NCBI RefSeq assembly: GCF_015355765.1 | Contig: NZ_JACWNA010000001.1 | Coordinates: 1 to 64,000, forward strand | Length of the DNA: 64,000 nucleotides | Reading direction: 5' to 3' | DNA from: Actinomyces haliotis | Lineage (GTDB): Bacteria; Actinomycetota; Actinomycetes; Actinomycetales; Actinomycetaceae | Shown here: piece after piece, positions 1,041 through 50,724 of the stretch | Layout: every line of letters begins with the position of its first letter | Position numbering within the stretch: position 1 is the first letter of the stretch | Translations under genes and position numbers: made by a program | The notes under the pieces: model-generated | The model's database searches: none | Told to the model about the DNA's origin: nothing | What the model saw: only the letters and a program-made list of their open reading frames with translations

Positions 1041-2225
1041 TCAGCCTCTCAGGCTGCCGATCCCGAGGGATCCGTCAGCCGGTGCGGTGGTGGTCGGTGC
1101 GGTGGTGGTCGGTGCGCTCTGCGCGGGCGGGGCGGTCTCGGCGGAGCCGGCGTCGTCCGGGCCCAGGGGCTCTGCGACGTCCTCGGTGGACGCGGTGGGG
1201 TCCGTGAGCCCCAGCGCGGCCGCCTGGGGCAGTCCGAGGGCGGGCTGGGTCGGGTCCTCGGGCTCGTCGTCGTCCAGCAGGCCGGGGCGCGCGTGCTCCT
1301 CCGCGTCGTCGAGGAAGTCCGCCGGGGGCGCGAAGAAGAGGGCGCCGGTGACGGCGGTGGAGAAGTCGAGGATGCGGTCGTAGTTCCCCTCGGGCTCGCC
1401 GATGAACATGCGTCGGAGCATGAGCTCGGTGATGCGCGGGTCCGCGGCGTAGGACATGAAGAAGGTGCCCTGCTCCCCCGAGGCGTTGCCGAAGGCGAGG
1501 TTGTCCCGCACGATCTTGTGCTCGTTGCCCTCGGCGTCCTCGACGGTGTTGAGCGCGACGTGGGAGTTGTGGGGCTTGACGTCGTCGTCGAGCTCGACGT
1601 CGTCCATCTTGGTCCGGCCGATGACGAGCTCCTGCTCGCGGGTGCTCAGGGCGTCCCAGGCCGTGAGGTCGTGGGTGTAGCGCTGCTCGATGATGTACGA
1701 GCCTCCGGCCCACTTGCCTTCGGGGACGAGGGCCGACTCGACGGCCTCACGACCCTCCGGGCTCTCGGTGCCGTCGACGAAGCCGAGAGGATCCCGCGAC
1801 TCCCGGTAGCGGAAGCCGTGGACCTCGTCCTCCGGCCGGACCGCGTCTCCGAGGGCTCGCGTGACCTCACGAACCACCTCGAAGCAGGTGTCGAAGGTCT
1901 GGGAGCGGACGTGGAGGAAGAGGTCCCCCGGGGTCGACGGCGCGCTGTGGCGGGAACCGGTGACGGGCTCGAGGACGTGGAGCCGCTCCGGCCGGGGCGT
2001 CTCGAAGAGCCGGTCCCAGGCGCGCGCCCCGATCCCCACGACGCAGCTGACGCCGGCCTCCGGCGAGCGGAAGGCGACCGAGTGCGTGAGGGACTCGATC
2101 TCGGGCAGGGTCTCCAGGACGCGCGCCTCACCGCCCTCGCGAATCGTCAGCGTGAGGAAGATGGAGGCCTTCGCAGGCGCGCCGAGGACGGCCTGCGAGA
2201 GCTCGATCGCGTTCGCGTCGGTCAT
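1041..2225 (-). CDS. DyP-type peroxidase, encapsulin cargo
   Basis: This is a 394-residue heme peroxidase of the dye-decolorizing family. The distal GFVDGTES motif (residues 148-155) carries the catalytic Asp, and His in PHNSHVALN (about 222) is the expected proximal heme ligand. After the enzyme domain comes a flexible tail of about 60 residues, including repeated PTTTA units, that ends in DGSLGIGSLRG. This matches the known encapsulin-loading peptide consensus of DyP cargo. The ATG at 2225 was chosen because a TACCAT -10 element ends 7 bases before it; an in-frame GTG at 2255 would add 10 residues. It sits immediately upstream of the shell gene. Confidence 0.93.
   Translation of the reverse strand: MTDANAIELSQAVLGAPAKASIFLTLTIREGGEARVLETLPEIESLTHSVAFRSPEAGVSCVVGIGARAWDRLFETPRPERLHVLEPVTGSRHSAPSTPGDLFLHVRSQTFDTCFEVVREVTRALGDAVRPEDEVHGFRYRESRDPLGFVDGTESPEGREAVESALVPEGKWAGGSYIIEQRYTHDLTAWDALSTREQELVIGRTKMDDVELDDDVKPHNSHVALNTVEDAEGNEHKIVRDNLAFGNASGEQGTFFMSYAADPRITELMLRRMFIGEPEGNYDRILDFSTAVTGALFFAPPADFLDDAEEHARPGLLDDDEPEDPTQPALGLPQAAALGLTDPTASTEDVAEPLGPDDAGSAETAPPAQSAPTTTAPTTTAPADGSLGIGSLRG
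1081..1116. repeat. 15-bp tandem repeat in the DyP tail
   Basis: The unit GGTGCGGTGGTGGTC (plus strand) occurs twice and is followed by 6 bases of a third copy. On the minus strand it encodes the APTTTAPTTTAP linker just ahead of the targeting peptide. Copy number could vary by slippage and would change linker length in frame by 5 residues per unit. Confidence 0.8.
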
Positions 2226-2232
2226 GGCACCA

Positions 2233-2238
2233 ATGGTA
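2233..2238 (-). promoter_or_regulatory. -10 element of the peroxidase-encapsulin operon
   Basis: TACCAT reads on the minus strand and ends 7 bases before the ATG at 2225, with no Shine-Dalgarno sequence between. This suggests a leaderless transcript, the same layout seen at several other genes here. Confidence 0.5.
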
Positions 2239-2310
2239 GCCGGGAGCCACGACACGGTCGCACGGTGACGGCTCGGAGCGGAACCGGGTCCGGCCCGACG
2301 CCGTAGCGGA

Positions 2311-4695
2311 TCAGCTCGACGCTGAGGAGGTGAGGTCGTAGACCGTCACGCCGTCGACCGTCTGGGCCGTGAAGTTCTGCTTGACCCAGATCTCGATCTC
2401 GGAGGCCGAGGACTCGCCGGAGCCGCTCAACCCGCCCTGACCGGCGTCGGAGACGATGTAGTAGTGGATCTCTCCCTCCTCGACCCACTTCTCGAACTGG
2501 ACGAGGGTGGGCGAGTCGTCGGTGCCGGAGAAGCCGCCAATCGGCATGACCGAGGTCTCGGAGGCCAGCTCGTAGGAGGCGGCCGACTGGGAGGCGGTGA
2601 TGGCGGCCGTCCAGCGGTACTGGCTCGAGTCCTCCTGGAGCATCTTGACCAGCGTCGACGAGGTCGAGTTGCCCATGCCGAGCATGGCGCCGACGTTGTT
2701 GCCCCCGCCGGCCTGGCCGTCGGACTCGGTCGAGCCGGACTCAGAGTCGCTCGAGCCGGAACCGGACTCGGTCGAGCCGGACCCTGCTGAACCTGACTGA
2801 CCGTCGCTCGAGCCGGACCCGGACGGGGCCTCGCCCGTCATGCCCTCAGGCGCCTCACCGCTCGGAGGCTGGTTGTCGCCGCCCTCGGGAGCCTCGCCTG
2901 CGCCGCCCTCAGGGGCCTCGCCGTCGGTGCCCGACGGGGACTGGCCCATCCCGTCGGCCCCGGCCTCGGTCGAGCCGGACTCGGTGGAGTCGGAGCTGCT
3001 GCTGGAGGAGGTGCTCCCCGCGGACGGCGTCGCCGAGCCGCTCGCCCCGGACTCGGTGGAGCCGGAGCGGTCGGAGCCCTGAGCGCCGTCGGGCTGCCCG
3101 CCGGGGCCACCCTGGCCTCCCTGGCTGCCGCCGGGGCCACCGCCCGTGCCGTCGCCGTTCGAGGTGGTCGGACCGGCGATCGGGATGGAGCCCGTGTGAG
3201 CGGAGTCGATGGTGTTCGCAGACCAGGCCACGGGGCCGAGGAGCGCGGCGACGATCGCGAGGGTCGCGGCAGCGCGGGTGATGAGGCGGCCGCGCTTGGT
3301 CCCGGGGTCGGCCTCGTCCTTGCCGTAGCGCAGGGAGCCCGCGACCGTGAGACCGATGGCGCCGAGCGCGCCGAGGGCGACGACGGCCCACTTGAGCCAG
3401 GCCAACCAGTTCGTGGCGGTGGACAGGAGGAAGGCGCCCCAGGCCGTCGTGACGACGGTGGTGCCGGCGAGGGTGAAGAGCACCCAGGCCTTGCGGGCGT
3501 TCTCCTTGGCCAACCCCACGCCGATGCCGACGAGGGCGGCGATCGCGGGGGTGAGGGCCACCGTGTAGTACTGGTGGAAGGTACCGGACATGAAGGAGAA
3601 GACGAGCCACGTGATGGCGAGCCAGCTGAACCAGACGACGACCTGGGCGCGGCGCCCGTCGGTGCGGCGGGCGCGGCCGATGAGGATGAGCGCCAGGACC
3701 GTGAGGACGATGGCGGCGGGGGCCAGCCAGGACACCTGGTTGGCGTACGTGCCCTTCCACAGGCGCAGCAGGCCCGTGGCCCCACCGATGTTGTTGTTGC
3801 CGGAGCCGCCGCCGGTGATGCGGTCGAGGCCGTTGTAGGCGAAGGTAAGGTTGAGGAAGGAGTTATCCGTCGAGCCGCCCACGTAGGGGCGCGAGCTCGC
3901 GGGCCAGAGCTCGACGAGGGCGACCCACCAGCCGCCGGAGACGATCATGGCGACGATGGCGAGGAGGCCGTCGCGGATGCGGCGCTTCCACGAGACGGGC
4001 GCCGCCCAGAACCAGACGAGCGCGAAGCCGGGCAGGACGAGGAAGGCCTGCATCTGCTTGGTGAGGAAGGCGAAGCCGATGGCGACGCCCGCCAGGACCA
4101 TCCAGCGGCTCCGGCCCTCCTCGATCGCCCGCAGGACCGCGCCGGTGGCGAGGGTGAGCAGGAGGATGAGGAGCGCGTCGGGGTTGTTGAAGCGGAACAT
4201 CATGACCGCGACGGGCACGGTCAGCAGCACGATGGAGCCGGCCCAGGCGGCGAAGGCCGAGAAGCGACGGCGGATGATGCAGTAGAGCGAGGCGATGGTG
4301 CCGACTCCCATGGCCGCCTGCGGTGCGAGGACGGTGAAGGAGGACAGTCCGAAGGCCCGGATCATGAGGGCCGAGGCCCACAGGGAGGCCGGCGGCTTGT
4401 CGACCGTGATCGAGTTCCCCGAGTCCGAGGAGCCGAAGAGCATCGCCTTCCAGGACTGGGAGCCGGCCCACTCGGCGGCGGCGTAGAACTCGTTGCCGTA
4501 CTTGGAGACGGTGAGGTTGAAGAAGTAGACGAAGGCGGCCAGGACGAGGAGGCCGACGAAGCCCACCTTCTCCTTGCGGGACCAGTCGCGGGGCCTGGTG
4601 ACGACGGGCCGGTGCTCGACGGTCATCGCGGCCGCTCCGGTCGCGGTTGCTGCAGTGGGTCCTGAGCGCTTCGCGTCAGGCGTTGGTGAGGTCAC
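2311..4695 (-). CDS. GT39-family membrane glycosyltransferase, YkcB-like
   Basis: This 794-residue polytopic membrane protein belongs to the ArnT/PMT-like (GT39, GT-C) superfamily and is expected to transfer a sugar from a lipid-linked donor on the outer face of the membrane. The first TM segment is near residues 43-62, and an ITVDKPP motif near residues 96-102 carries the likely catalytic Asp in the first outside loop. About ten more TM helices follow. A Gly/Ser/Glu-rich low-complexity linker of about 160 residues (DNA 2697-3174) joins the membrane part to a C-terminal extracytoplasmic domain of the YkcA_C type. The GTG start overlaps the stop of the upstream GT2 gene (GTGA), with an AAGGAG 11 bases before it. 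The sugar and acceptor are unknown. Confidence 0.88.
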   Translation of the reverse strand: MTSPTPDAKRSGPTAATATGAAAMTVEHRPVVTRPRDWSRKEKVGFVGLLVLAAFVYFFNLTVSKYGNEFYAAAEWAGSQSWKAMLFGSSDSGNSITVDKPPASLWASALMIRAFGLSSFTVLAPQAAMGVGTIASLYCIIRRRFSAFAAWAGSIVLLTVPVAVMMFRFNNPDALLILLLTLATGAVLRAIEEGRSRWMVLAGVAIGFAFLTKQMQAFLVLPGFALVWFWAAPVSWKRRIRDGLLAIVAMIVSGGWWVALVELWPASSRPYVGGSTDNSFLNLTFAYNGLDRITGGGSGNNNIGGATGLLRLWKGTYANQVSWLAPAAIVLTVLALILIGRARRTDGRRAQVVVWFSWLAITWLVFSFMSGTFHQYYTVALTPAIAALVGIGVGLAKENARKAWVLFTLAGTTVVTTAWGAFLLSTATNWLAWLKWAVVALGALGAIGLTVAGSLRYGKDEADPGTKRGRLITRAAATLAIVAALLGPVAWSANTIDSAHTGSIPIAGPTTSNGDGTGGGPGGSQGGQGGPGGQPDGAQGSDRSGSTESGASGSATPSAGSTSSSSSSDSTESGSTEAGADGMGQSPSGTDGEAPEGGAGEAPEGGDNQPPSGEAPEGMTGEAPSGSGSSDGQSGSAGSGSTESGSGSSDSESGSTESDGQAGGGNNVGAMLGMGNSTSSTLVKMLQEDSSQYRWTAAITASQSAASYELASETSVMPIGGFSGTDDSPTLVQFEKWVEEGEIHYYIVSDAGQGGLSGSGESSASEIEIWVKQNFTAQTVDGVTVYDLTSSASS

Positions 4696-17086: not shown

Positions 17087-17163
17087 TGGTAGCGGGGGCA
17101 GGATTCGAACCTGCGACCTCCGGGTTATGAGCCCGGCGAGCTACCGAACTGCTCCACCCCGCG
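17087..17163 (-). tRNA. Initiator tRNA-fMet (CAT)
   Basis: This 77-nt tRNA has an encoded CCA and anticodon CAT. Initiator features are visible. The acceptor 5' strand CGCGGGG faces CCCCGCT, so base 1 (C) and base 72 (U) do not pair. The anticodon stem has three consecutive G-C pairs next to the loop (GGG-CTCATAA-CCC). The T-arm loop is TTCGAAT. U72 instead of the A72 of E. coli is also seen in mycobacterial initiators. A strong terminator follows. Confidence 0.95.
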
Positions 17164-32850: not shown

Positions 32851-33969
32851 GTGCGCGTCCTCGCGGCACTGTCCGGCGGAGTCGACTCGGCCGTGGCCGC
32901 AGCCCGCGCCGTCGACGCCGGCCACGACGTCGTCGGCGTCCACATGGCCCTCACCCGCAACCGCGCCCAGACCCGCTCCGGCTCCCGCGGCTGCTGCTCC
33001 ATCGAGGACGCGGGCGACGCCCGCTGGGCCGCGGAGATCCTCGGCATCCCCTTCTACGTCTGGGACCTGTCCGAGGAGTTCGAGGAGCGCGTCGTCGACG
33101 ACTTCCTCTCCGAGTACCGCGCCGGCCGCACCCCCAACCCGTGCGTGCGCTGCAACGAGCGCGTCAAGTTCGACGCCCTGCTCGAGCGGGGCCTCGCCAT
33201 GGGCTTCGACGCCGTCGCCACCGGCCACTACGCCCGTCTCACCGGCGGCGCCGCCTCCGGCCGCCCGGGCGACGAGACCGGCCTCACCCTCTCGCGCGCG
33301 GCCGACCACGCCAAGGACCAGTCCTACGTCCTCGCCGTCTCCGGGCCCCGGGGTCTTGCCCGTGCGCTCTTCCCACTCGGCGACGCTCCCTCCAAGGCGG
33401 AGGTGCGCGCGGAGGCCGAGCGCCGCGGCCTGCCCGTCGCCTCGAAGCCGGACTCCTACGACATCTGCTTCGTGGCCGACGGCGACACTCGTGGTTTTCT
33501 CCAGCGCTCCCTCGGCGTCCAGGAGGGTGCCATGGTCTCCCCCGACGGCGAGGTCCTGGGCACGCACGGCGGCTACTTCGGCTTCACCGTCGGCCAGCGC
33601 AAGGGTCTCGGCCTCACGCACCCGGCCCCGGACGGCCGCCCGCGCTACGTCATCGAGACGCGACCCGAGACGAACGAGGTCGTCGTCGGCCCCGAGGAGC
33701 TGCTCTCACGCACCACGGTCGACGCGAGCTCCCTCGTTCTCCTCGCCGAGCCCGGTGACGTCGGCGGAACGACGGGCTGGCCGGACGTCACCGTGCAGGT
33801 CCGTGCGCACGGCCGCCCGGTGCCCGCTGAGGTGAGCGTCGACGTGACCGCAGGGACGCTCCACGCCGACCTCCGCCAGCCGCTCCGCGGACTCGCGGCC
33901 GGCCAGAGCGTCGTCGTCTACGGGGGCGAGTCCGGCGAGCAGGTCCTCGCCCAGGCGACCGTCGCCTGA
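32851..33969 (+). CDS. mnmA: tRNA-specific 2-thiouridylase MnmA
   Basis: This 372-residue enzyme makes 2-thiouridine at wobble position 34 of tRNA-Lys, -Glu and -Gln using ATP and persulfide sulfur. The PP-loop SGGVDSAVA (residues 8-16) binds ATP. The first catalytic Cys is in [14 protein letters not shown] (98/101) and the second in [15 protein letters not shown] and KDQSYVL are family landmarks. GTG 32851 follows AGGAGG at a good distance. The normal sulfur source is a cysteine desulfurase, encoded here at 29567-30832. It is convergent with etfA; a large palindrome lies between. Confidence 0.96.
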
Positions 33970-34041
33970 CCGCACGTCATCCCGCGCGCGCCGGACTGGA
34001 CAGGCCGCCCGCAGCACCCGGTCCCGGGTCACCGAACGAGA

Positions 34042-34113
34042 TCGACCGTCAATGCACCGCTCGACCGTCCGATTTCCGGAAATCAGGCGGTCGAGCGGTG
34101 CATTGACGGTCGA
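34042..34113. repeat. 72-bp near-perfect palindrome between mnmA and etfA
   Basis: The two outer 26-bp arms (34042-34067 and 34088-34113) are perfect reverse complements, and the centre GATTTCCGGAAATC (34071-34084) is also perfect. Only two of 36 positions per arm mismatch (34068 and 34070), and there is no loop. TCGACCGT occurs twice in the left arm (34042 and 34061). No T-tract follows on either strand. It sits between convergent genes, so it may stop transcription, but it is far longer than a normal terminator. Confidence 0.85.
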
Positions 34114-34155
34114 CGGGCGGGGGCCGGGCGAGCGTGAGCCGCGCCCGGCGCATGC

Positions 34156-35181
34156 TCAGGCGCGCAGCGCGGCGAGCTCCTCGACGAGCTGGGGCACGAC
34201 CTCGGTGACGTCGCCGACGACGCCGAAGTCCGCCATCTCGAAGATCGGGGCCTCGGAGTCGTCGCAGACCGCGACGATCGTGCCGGCGCCCTGGATGCCG
34301 GAGGTGTGGTGGACCGCCCCGGAGACGCCGAGACCGATGTAGAGGCGCGGCGCGACCGAGGAGCCGGTCTGCCCGACCTGCGCGCTGCGCTCGATCCAGC
34401 CCTCGTCGCAGGCGACGCGGGTCGCGCCGACGGCGGCACCGAGCGGGTCGGCCAGCGAGTGGACGAGGTCGAAGTCGCCGTCGACCCCGCGCCCGCCGAC
34501 GACGACGGTGCGCGCCTCGGTGAGGACCGGCCCGGAGGCGGCCGCGGTGGCCTCGCGCGAGACGAGGCGGACGGCAAGGGCCTCGGGGCTGAGGACGACG
34601 TCGAGGGGCTCGACCGCCAGCGGCGCCGCCCCCTCCTCGACGCGCGCCTCGAAGGCGCCGGGCCGGACCGCGACGACGGGAGCGCGGCCGGCGTCCGGGG
34701 TCACGGAGATCGTCGTGGACCAGGAGCCGGAGAGGACCAGCTTGCCGGCGCGCAGCTCACCGTCCGCGACCTCGAGCTCGGCAGCGTCCGAGGTGGCGGC
34801 GGAGTCGAGGAGGACGGCGGCACGGCCGGCGAGCTCCTTGCCGCGGTAGTCGGAGATGACGAGCGCGGCGGCGGCGCCGGTGGCGCGCGCGGCGGAGACG
34901 AGGGCGTCGGCAGCGGCGGCCGCCTGGGTCTCGTGGCCGTCGAGGTCGGCGATGAGCAGGCGGGTGGCGCCGGCGCCGGCGAGCTGCGAGGAGGTCGTGG
35001 CACCGGGCGTGCCGAGCACGAGGGCGATGACGTCATCGCTCGTGAGGGTCCGGGCGGCGTTGAGGAGCTCGAGCGAGGGGCCGGTCGGTCGGGCGTCAGT
35101 CGCGGCCGCGGCGTCGGCGTGCTCCCCCTGGCCCTCGATGTCGACGAGGACGAGCACGGGTGCGGACAGGGTCTCAGTCAT
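34156..35181 (-). CDS. etfA: Electron transfer flavoprotein, alpha subunit
   Basis: This 341-residue ETF alpha (FixB) chain binds FAD and pairs with EtfB to carry electrons between dehydrogenases and a quinone or other acceptor. The C-terminal FAD domain is clear: VVVGGRGVDGDFDLV, VGATRVACDEGWIERSAQVGQTG, and APRLYIGLGVSGAVHHTSGIQGAGTIVAV. The N-terminal domain is poorly conserved and somewhat longer than usual. AAGGA precedes the ATG. It follows etfB with 31 bases between, in one operon. No dehydrogenase or ETF-quinone oxidoreductase gene is adjacent, so the partner enzymes are not known. Confidence 0.94.
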   Translation of the reverse strand: MTETLSAPVLVLVDIEGQGEHADAAAATDARPTGPSLELLNAARTLTSDDVIALVLGTPGATTSSQLAGAGATRLLIADLDGHETQAAAAADALVSAARATGAAAALVISDYRGKELAGRAAVLLDSAATSDAAELEVADGELRAGKLVLSGSWSTTISVTPDAGRAPVVAVRPGAFEARVEEGAAPLAVEPLDVVLSPEALAVRLVSREATAAASGPVLTEARTVVVGGRGVDGDFDLVHSLADPLGAAVGATRVACDEGWIERSAQVGQTGSSVAPRLYIGLGVSGAVHHTSGIQGAGTIVAVCDDSEAPIFEMADFGVVGDVTEVVPQLVEELAALRA

Positions 35182-42193: not shown

Positions 42194-47868
<5,675 letters not shown>

Positions 47869-50674: not shown

Positions 50675-50724
50675 CACGACGGAGCCCCGTCATCCTCGCA
50701 GGAGGATGACGGGGCTCCGTCGTG
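50675..50724. terminator. Strong bidirectional terminator after glgP
   Basis: A perfect 23-bp stem (50675-50697 with 50702-50724) closes on a GCAG loop, between the convergent glgP and thioredoxin/TPR gene ends. Confidence 0.85.

Follow-up and report, generated by a model that had tools for sequence, protein, structure and literature searches.

The analysed stretch of Actinomyces haliotis DNA (64,000 nucleotides; hereafter the window) holds a 72-bp palindrome between the convergent genes mnmA and an etfA-like gene, the closest relatives of which are found in Actinomyces (Table 1). The two 36-base arms meet without a loop at a symmetry axis between positions 34077 and 34078, and 34 of the 36 pairs are matched, the unmatched ones lying at arm positions 27 and 29. 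Among the short-loop palindromes of the window it had the highest score (28, compared to 23 for the runner-up), while simulating the whole window 30 times with a first-order Markov model gave zero-loop palindromes that scored 13 at best, which confirms the near-perfect symmetry with two mismatches described in an initial annotation of the locus. The octamer repeat reported there was likewise recovered: the left arm contains two occurrences of TCGACCGT at a spacing of 19 bases, and the right arm has one exact match to its complement and another that carries a single change. The predicted RNA fold of positions 34036–34119 was very stable (-63.6 kcal/mol, z -11 relative to 200 shuffles), and no T-run lies on either side of the palindrome, in line with the earlier remark that a U-tract is absent.

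Table 1. Features of the palindrome and its surroundings in the window, and copies (c1–c6) of the element in the same genome
Feature	Position	Strand	Basis or remark	Intact TCGACCGnC motifs
mnmA (tRNA 2-thiouridine(34) synthase)	32851..33969	+	NCBIfam NF001138, TIGR00420 above cut-off; ends 72 nt before element	
c1, window copy of the element	34042..34113	.	best preserved of the six	4/4
Motif 1 (outer, left arm), TCGACCGTC	34042..34050	+	read in sequence	
Motif 2 (inner, left arm), TCGACCGTC	34061..34069	+	sequence; 19 bp from motif 1	
Motif 3 (inner, right arm), TCGACCGCC	34086..34094	-	sequence	
Motif 4 (outer, right arm), TCGACCGTC	34105..34113	-	sequence	
Separate imperfect GC-rich hairpin between element and etfA	34123..34150 (approximate)	-	fold; not a scored strong stem	
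etfA-like (electron transfer flavoprotein alpha-like)	34156..35181	-	NCBIfam ETF-alpha, below cut-offs; ends 42 nt from element	
c2	C27:150889			3/4
c3	C27:187873		overlaps 3' end of upstream ORF	2/4
c4	C7:14164			2/4
c5	C12:48237			1/4
c6	C8:80501			1/4

Searching the window against Rfam at the gathering score returned a tRNA at 17090–17163 as the sole match, leaving the palindrome without an Rfam family. The separate hairpin between the element and the etfA-like gene may possibly be the ordinary terminator of that gene, judging by its predicted fold. A perfect inverted repeat of 23 bp around a 4-base loop (score 23), at 50675–50724, lies in another convergent gap of the window; apart from its unusual length, it resembles an ordinary terminator hairpin.

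Six copies of the element were found in the genome from which the window derives (G000) by DNA and covariance-model searches, all of them at convergent gene ends. The counts do not include C36:141381 (E 9.6e-4), a match that may be the decayed remnant of a seventh copy, nor a half-match at C27:154147 (E 0.12), and a 17-base match before a TetR-like ORF at C36:88250 (E 0.06) was taken as chance. In the sister genome G051, the model search identified at least 30 copies of 72 bp; it gave 63 matches, of which 62 were among the matches listed. Four weaker matches (L116:1104, L110:4319, L128:23 and L150:16) were dropped before the counts, and so was a 51-nt match at 1997073, an ordinary terminator. 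All 30 copies listed by the model are 72 long, and each of the 29 that were read (the copy at 44992 lies outside this set) is exactly 72 bp. The sequence occurs six times in its own genome and about 30 times in the sister genome, so that it is not confined to this site, as it would have to be for the mobile-repeat reading of the initial annotation to fail. The proposal of a palindromic element that is dispersed and lies between convergent genes was right.

The distribution of the family was assessed with a model of 72 positions and 34 pairs (R2), used in place of R1, which had 13 pairs only. R2 matched 15 of the 49 genomes of the genus at E <= 0.01, and inspection of one or more matches per genome showed that nine of these carry the family (G000, G051, G019, G060, G008, G020, G014, G050 and G005). 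The matches in the other six (G022, G023, G040, G047, G054 and G015) were ordinary GC-rich hairpins and were dropped. As the remaining 34 of the 49 genomes gave no match, and six more contained ordinary hairpins only, the element is not generally needed. Among 151 genomes of the same taxonomic family, representing 36 genera, four matched at E <= 1e-4; three of them belong to the genus, and the match in the fourth, G138 of another genus, was an ordinary GC-rich hairpin and was dropped. These searches of the genus and family sets used stricter filters, by which weak matches were lost. A DNA search of 39 relatives, including 14 from other families of the order, retrieved only the element's own genome and one match in G007, which is located inside a long ORF and was considered fortuitous. 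A phage or plasmid origin was rejected: no DNA similar to the element was found in phage and plasmid collections, and one pattern match in IMG/VR, which falls in open reading frames of a contig resembling a phage, was attributed to chance.

The surroundings of etfA (up to 7 kb) in 27 named genomes, which include two near relatives besides Actinomyces, contained one clear match, in Actinomyces glycerinitolerans about 0.5 kb past etfA. A short ordinary hairpin is frequent behind etfA in other Actinomyces. Downstream of etfA in A. denticolens (L054, ~897–976), a 79-nt imperfect palindrome of other sequence was observed, with 34-nt arms, six mismatches and an 11-nt loop. The element family is so far known only from Actinomyces.

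The copies in the sister genome were used to define the placement of the element; the statistics on placement exclude those of G020, several of which lie within longer repeats. With genes from a simple caller, 14 of the 29 copies were convergent, 14 tandem and one divergent; assignment by hand, including a previously uncalled 361-aa ORF in L110, gave 13, 15 and one, respectively. A stop codon lay no more than 130 nt from 28 of the 29 copies, and the median distance was 31 nt to 3' ends (n = 42) compared to 114 nt to 5' ends (n = 16). In the tandem gaps, the copy was closer to the 3' end of the upstream gene in 13 of 14 cases (Wilcoxon p 0.0004). The L110 ORF itself (1952–3037, minus strand), whose 3' end runs into a palindrome copy, gave no Pfam match; we take it to be DUF559/AbiEi-like. 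A relative of it adjoins a copy in G020 (L146). A DUF559-like gene as the partner of the element was rejected, because such a gene was found beside the L110 and L146 copies only and no other relative was present among the ORFs of 66 sources.

Gaps that hold the element tend to lack other hairpins. In convergent and tandem gaps of 80–700 nt in G051, a second strong hairpin was present in 3 of 25 gaps with the element and in 12 of 17 without it (Fisher p 0.0002), the background gaps being taken from stretches picked for holding elements and the genes from the simple caller. The same was seen for the tandem gaps alone, where another hairpin was found in 1 of 13 gaps with the element compared to 11 of 16 without (p 0.002). 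Two of the three hairpin-bearing exceptions are old sites common to the window's genome and G051, where terminator hairpins conserved in both species adjoin the copy. Such ordinary hairpins beside the element characterise the orthologous sites c2/L124 and c6/L120, at which the element is thus not the sole stop. No U-tract follows the copies in G051: of the 58 flanks, 50 contain one T or none in 12 nt, and the maximum is four.

Each 36-bp half of the element consists of TCGACCGnC, ten bases, a second TCGACCGnC and an inner part of eight bases, so that the two motifs of a half are 19 bp apart and the 72 bp carry four. Across the 58 arms in G051, positions 2–6, 9, 21, 22, 24, 25, 26 and 35 are invariant. 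The pairwise difference amounted to 1.3% at 32 motif positions and 34.5% at the other 40, with the positions chosen on the same data; in a split-half check, in which positions taken from half of the copies were tested on the rest, the values were 3.8% and 32.6%. When the positions defined in G051 were applied to other carriers, the difference at motif positions versus the rest was 6% v 32% in G020, 21% v 32% in G060, 23% v 39% in G019 and 28% v 36% in G008, the contrast being weak in the latter three. GACC often recurs outward of the core in G019, G060, G008 and the G014/G050 group, so that the arrays in these genomes are longer. The spacing of GACCR around the copies of other species was most often 19 (69 pairs), followed by 38 (39 pairs) and 15 (21 pairs). 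In G051, the 72 bp are mostly bordered on both sides directly by GTGG, with a C-rich stretch beyond, whereas GTGG is absent just outside the window copy. A different palindromic array of ~110 bp, composed of direct and inverted GACCGAACTC units, was observed in a tandem gap of G051 (L107, ~690–935).

In the sister genome, the conserved motif and its fixed spacing exceed what pairing of the arms would need. Complementary pairs numbered 847 of 1044, compared to 839.5 +/- 7.5 with shuffled partners, and 353 of 2000 shuffles reached 847. Two single pairs, 10/63 and 32/41, exceeded the shuffles (0.006 each, among the 20 variable pairs shown). The arms differed at 6.8 positions within one copy and at 7.1 between copies, and no preference for G-U was seen in the transcript sense of the 14 tandem copies (23 G/T versus 21 A/C mismatches). 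The conserved motifs, together with arms lacking covariation or a G-U preference, indicate that selection in G051 appears to act on the motif in double-stranded form instead of on the hairpin; each half-site looks constrained to one consensus rather than each arm to its partner.

A different picture emerged in two other species. For the five copies in G008, 148 of 180 pairs were complementary compared to 126.8 +/- 4.1 in shuffles, and for the seven in G019, 198 of 252 compared to 176 +/- 4.7, with 0 of 1000 shuffles reaching the observed value in either case; both sets are small, and related sequences can beat shuffles without structure. This covariation fits a hairpin or arm-to-arm copying. 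In G060 it was at chance (211 of 1000 shuffles) and in G020 below chance. The test was confined to copies of exactly 72 bp, and L165 was excluded from the G020 set. The initial annotation had also considered a cruciform-forming site; as a selected feature, this gains no support from the G051 arms, which do not covary, although those of G008 and G019 do.

With regard to the history of the family, the window's genome and G051 have a copy in common at three gene pairs. Two of these pairs could be compared gap-free and differed at 13 and 18 of the 72 positions, while the old G051 copies at shared sites keep four and three of the four motifs, which suggests selection in place. Three copies each at L106 and L112 of G051 are without counterpart among the G000 matches; as the gaps at these six sites differ beyond the element, they provide no clean empty site in G000. 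Conversely, no copy was present at the window's site in G051 among the matches listed, where mnmA and etfA are 1.65 kb apart with other genes between them. The window copy differs from the G051 consensus at two bases, compared to 3 to 13 for the 29 G051 copies themselves. Intact motifs, in contrast, amount to 13 of 24 in the G000 copies and 110 of 116 in the 29 G051 copies, and by this measure the family seems to be eroding in the window's species, even though the window copy is near-consensus.

The copies in G051 are clustered, with nine neighbour pairs under 5 kb compared to 1.4 expected (0 of 5000 simulations), and neighbouring copies are more similar than distant ones (9.2 versus 13.0 differences). 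The family thus appears to combine persistence at its sites with local spreading. A search for target-site duplications of 2–9 bases at 0–6 from the edges of 32 copies (29 from G051 and three from G000) found none: edge repeats of at least four bases occurred in at most one of the 32 relative to shuffled partners, and a slight excess was seen solely for three bases at offset 3 (6 v 3.1). A scan for arms in G051 showed 29 of 30 palindromes with both arms, and 14 further single matches with no obvious separated inverted pair. In G020 (L154, L158–L164), several members of the family lie inside longer similar or near-identical repeats close to apparent insertion-sequence remains, and seem to have been multiplied along with these. 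Two other inverted repeats were noted in G000. One, identified by eye at L198 of C38 (~3636–3753), has ~20-bp arms and a long spacer, and occupies the same convergent gap in which G051 has a copy; the other, of unrelated sequence at L179 of C36 (1688–1756), has 29-nt arms that are 93% complementary and 11 nt apart.

The reading we prefer, with a probability of roughly 0.4, is that of a REP-like dispersed family at gene ends with a protein-recognised function acting in both directions, most likely termination. The existence of the family, its fixed length, the conservation of its motifs, its gene-end address and the scarcity of other hairpins in the same gaps were observed directly, and from these we infer that a putative sequence-specific DNA-binding protein would recognise the four-motif array and that the bound array, perhaps aided by an RNA hairpin, would stop or pause RNA polymerase arriving from either gene. 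Such a stop from both sides would insulate convergent and adjacent genes, and the copies would in addition spread within genomes. The earlier suggestion of a protein-binding site gains weight from the motif conservation and fixed spacing in G051. A more specific version, in which a putative protein on the four phased TCGACCGnC motifs blocks polymerase both ways and stands in for terminator hairpins behind about thirty genes of the sister species, with the system dying out in the window's species, is unlikely.

Spreading is better accounted for if the motifs are transposase sites. The element would then be a MITE-like, non-autonomous mobile element whose halves are back-to-back transposon ends, each with two transposase-binding repeats 19 bp apart, and its gene-end address would reflect harmless or targeted insertion. 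Copy positions that differ between the sister genomes (L106, L112 and the mnmA/etfA site), the local clustering of copies with neighbours more alike, the window copy only two bases off the G051 consensus and the longer direct-repeat arrays in G008, G019 and G060, which resemble transposase-binding arrays, all agree with mobility. We nevertheless consider this explanation rather doubtful, since target-site duplications of 4–9 bases did not exceed chance in the 32 copies, no clean empty site was found at the six sites compared, and the G051 scan gave two-armed palindromes in 29 of 30 cases and single matches without an obvious separated inverted pair in 14. The retention of motifs in the old copies at shared sites is also less well explained by transposase sites. 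A MITE-like origin, as put forward in the initial annotation, whose interpretation was partly supported overall, may apply, with no target-site duplication found at the copies.

Two further explanations were considered. If the element were a plain intrinsic two-way terminator or a stabiliser of mRNA 3' ends, spread by recombination and acting as an RNA hairpin with its DNA sequence unrecognised, the strong folds on both strands, the address after stop codons, in gaps that hold few other hairpins, and the arm covariation in G008 and G019 would all be expected. The absence of a U-tract (one T or none per 12 nt in 50 of 58 flanks) and of arm covariation or G-U preference in G051 speaks against it, as does a motif conservation and fixed 72-bp length that a hairpin would not need, and we regard such a function as quite improbable. 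A binding site for a topoisomerase or a protein of chromosome structure, located where supercoils build up through convergent transcription, would be consistent with the presence of the element in 13 of 14 convergent gaps of at least 80 nt compared to 15 of 37 others in G051 stretches that were chosen for holding elements (Fisher p 0.001). REPs, moreover, bind gyrase and IHF and occur between convergent genes, according to the available part of PMC1525189. Tandem gaps, however, account for about half of the copies in G051, and most genomes of the genus gave no match, which makes a supercoil-related site very improbable.

Compared to known systems, the element is a variant of the dispersed gene-end palindrome and not a REP. 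It resembles the REP/BIME class, as described in the available part of PMC3733652, in being a family of dispersed intergenic palindromes with clade-specific sequences near stop codons in convergent and unidirectional gaps. According to the same source, REPs in convergent gaps (conv-REPs) of two genomes were mostly located beside both 3' ends and those in unidirectional gaps (uni-REPs) near the end of the upstream gene, and the G051 copies are likewise dispersed near gene 3' ends. REPs are described there as stems of 5–13 bp with loops and a GTAG or CGTC tag, and the host phyla given in that part of the source do not include actinobacteria (PMC3733652). Unlike a REP, the element consists of loop-free 36-bp arms making up 72 bp, with four phased GACC motifs and, in the window copy, no unpaired tag. 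The Y1 (RAYT) transposase, PF01797, was not found in the element's own genome (0/1) or in the genus genomes (0/49), while 5 of 14 control genomes were positive. Membership of the REP/RAYT system, one of the possibilities raised in the initial annotation, was therefore rejected, given that no Y1 transposase was found and that size and motif are unlike those of GTAG/CGTC REPs.

With MITEs and REPINs the element shares its short, dispersed and locally clustered occurrence, inverted arms and lack of coding capacity; it differs in that the arms abut without an interior and that neither a target-site duplication nor an autonomous parent was found. The ends of Tn5090/Tn402-type transposons carry arrays of ~19-bp direct repeats that bind the transposase and are inverted between the two ends. 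The ~19-bp arrays of the element are similar, yet no transposon body lies between its arms and no matching terminal sequence was identified. Actinobacterial terminators without a U-tract, in turn, are GC-rich hairpins located after stop codons. Ordinary hairpins in the same gaps vary in sequence from gene to gene, whereas the element has a conserved motif and, at variable sites in G051, pairing at chance level. No account of such a family in Actinomyces was found within the open-licence literature.

Palindromes dispersed at gene ends have been known chiefly as REPs. The Actinomyces element, which has a REP-like address but another build and no REP transposase, offers separate ground on which to ask why repeats of this sort accumulate downstream of genes. 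If it is bound by a protein, it would represent a bacterial genome equipped with a dispersed stop site of the roadblock type.
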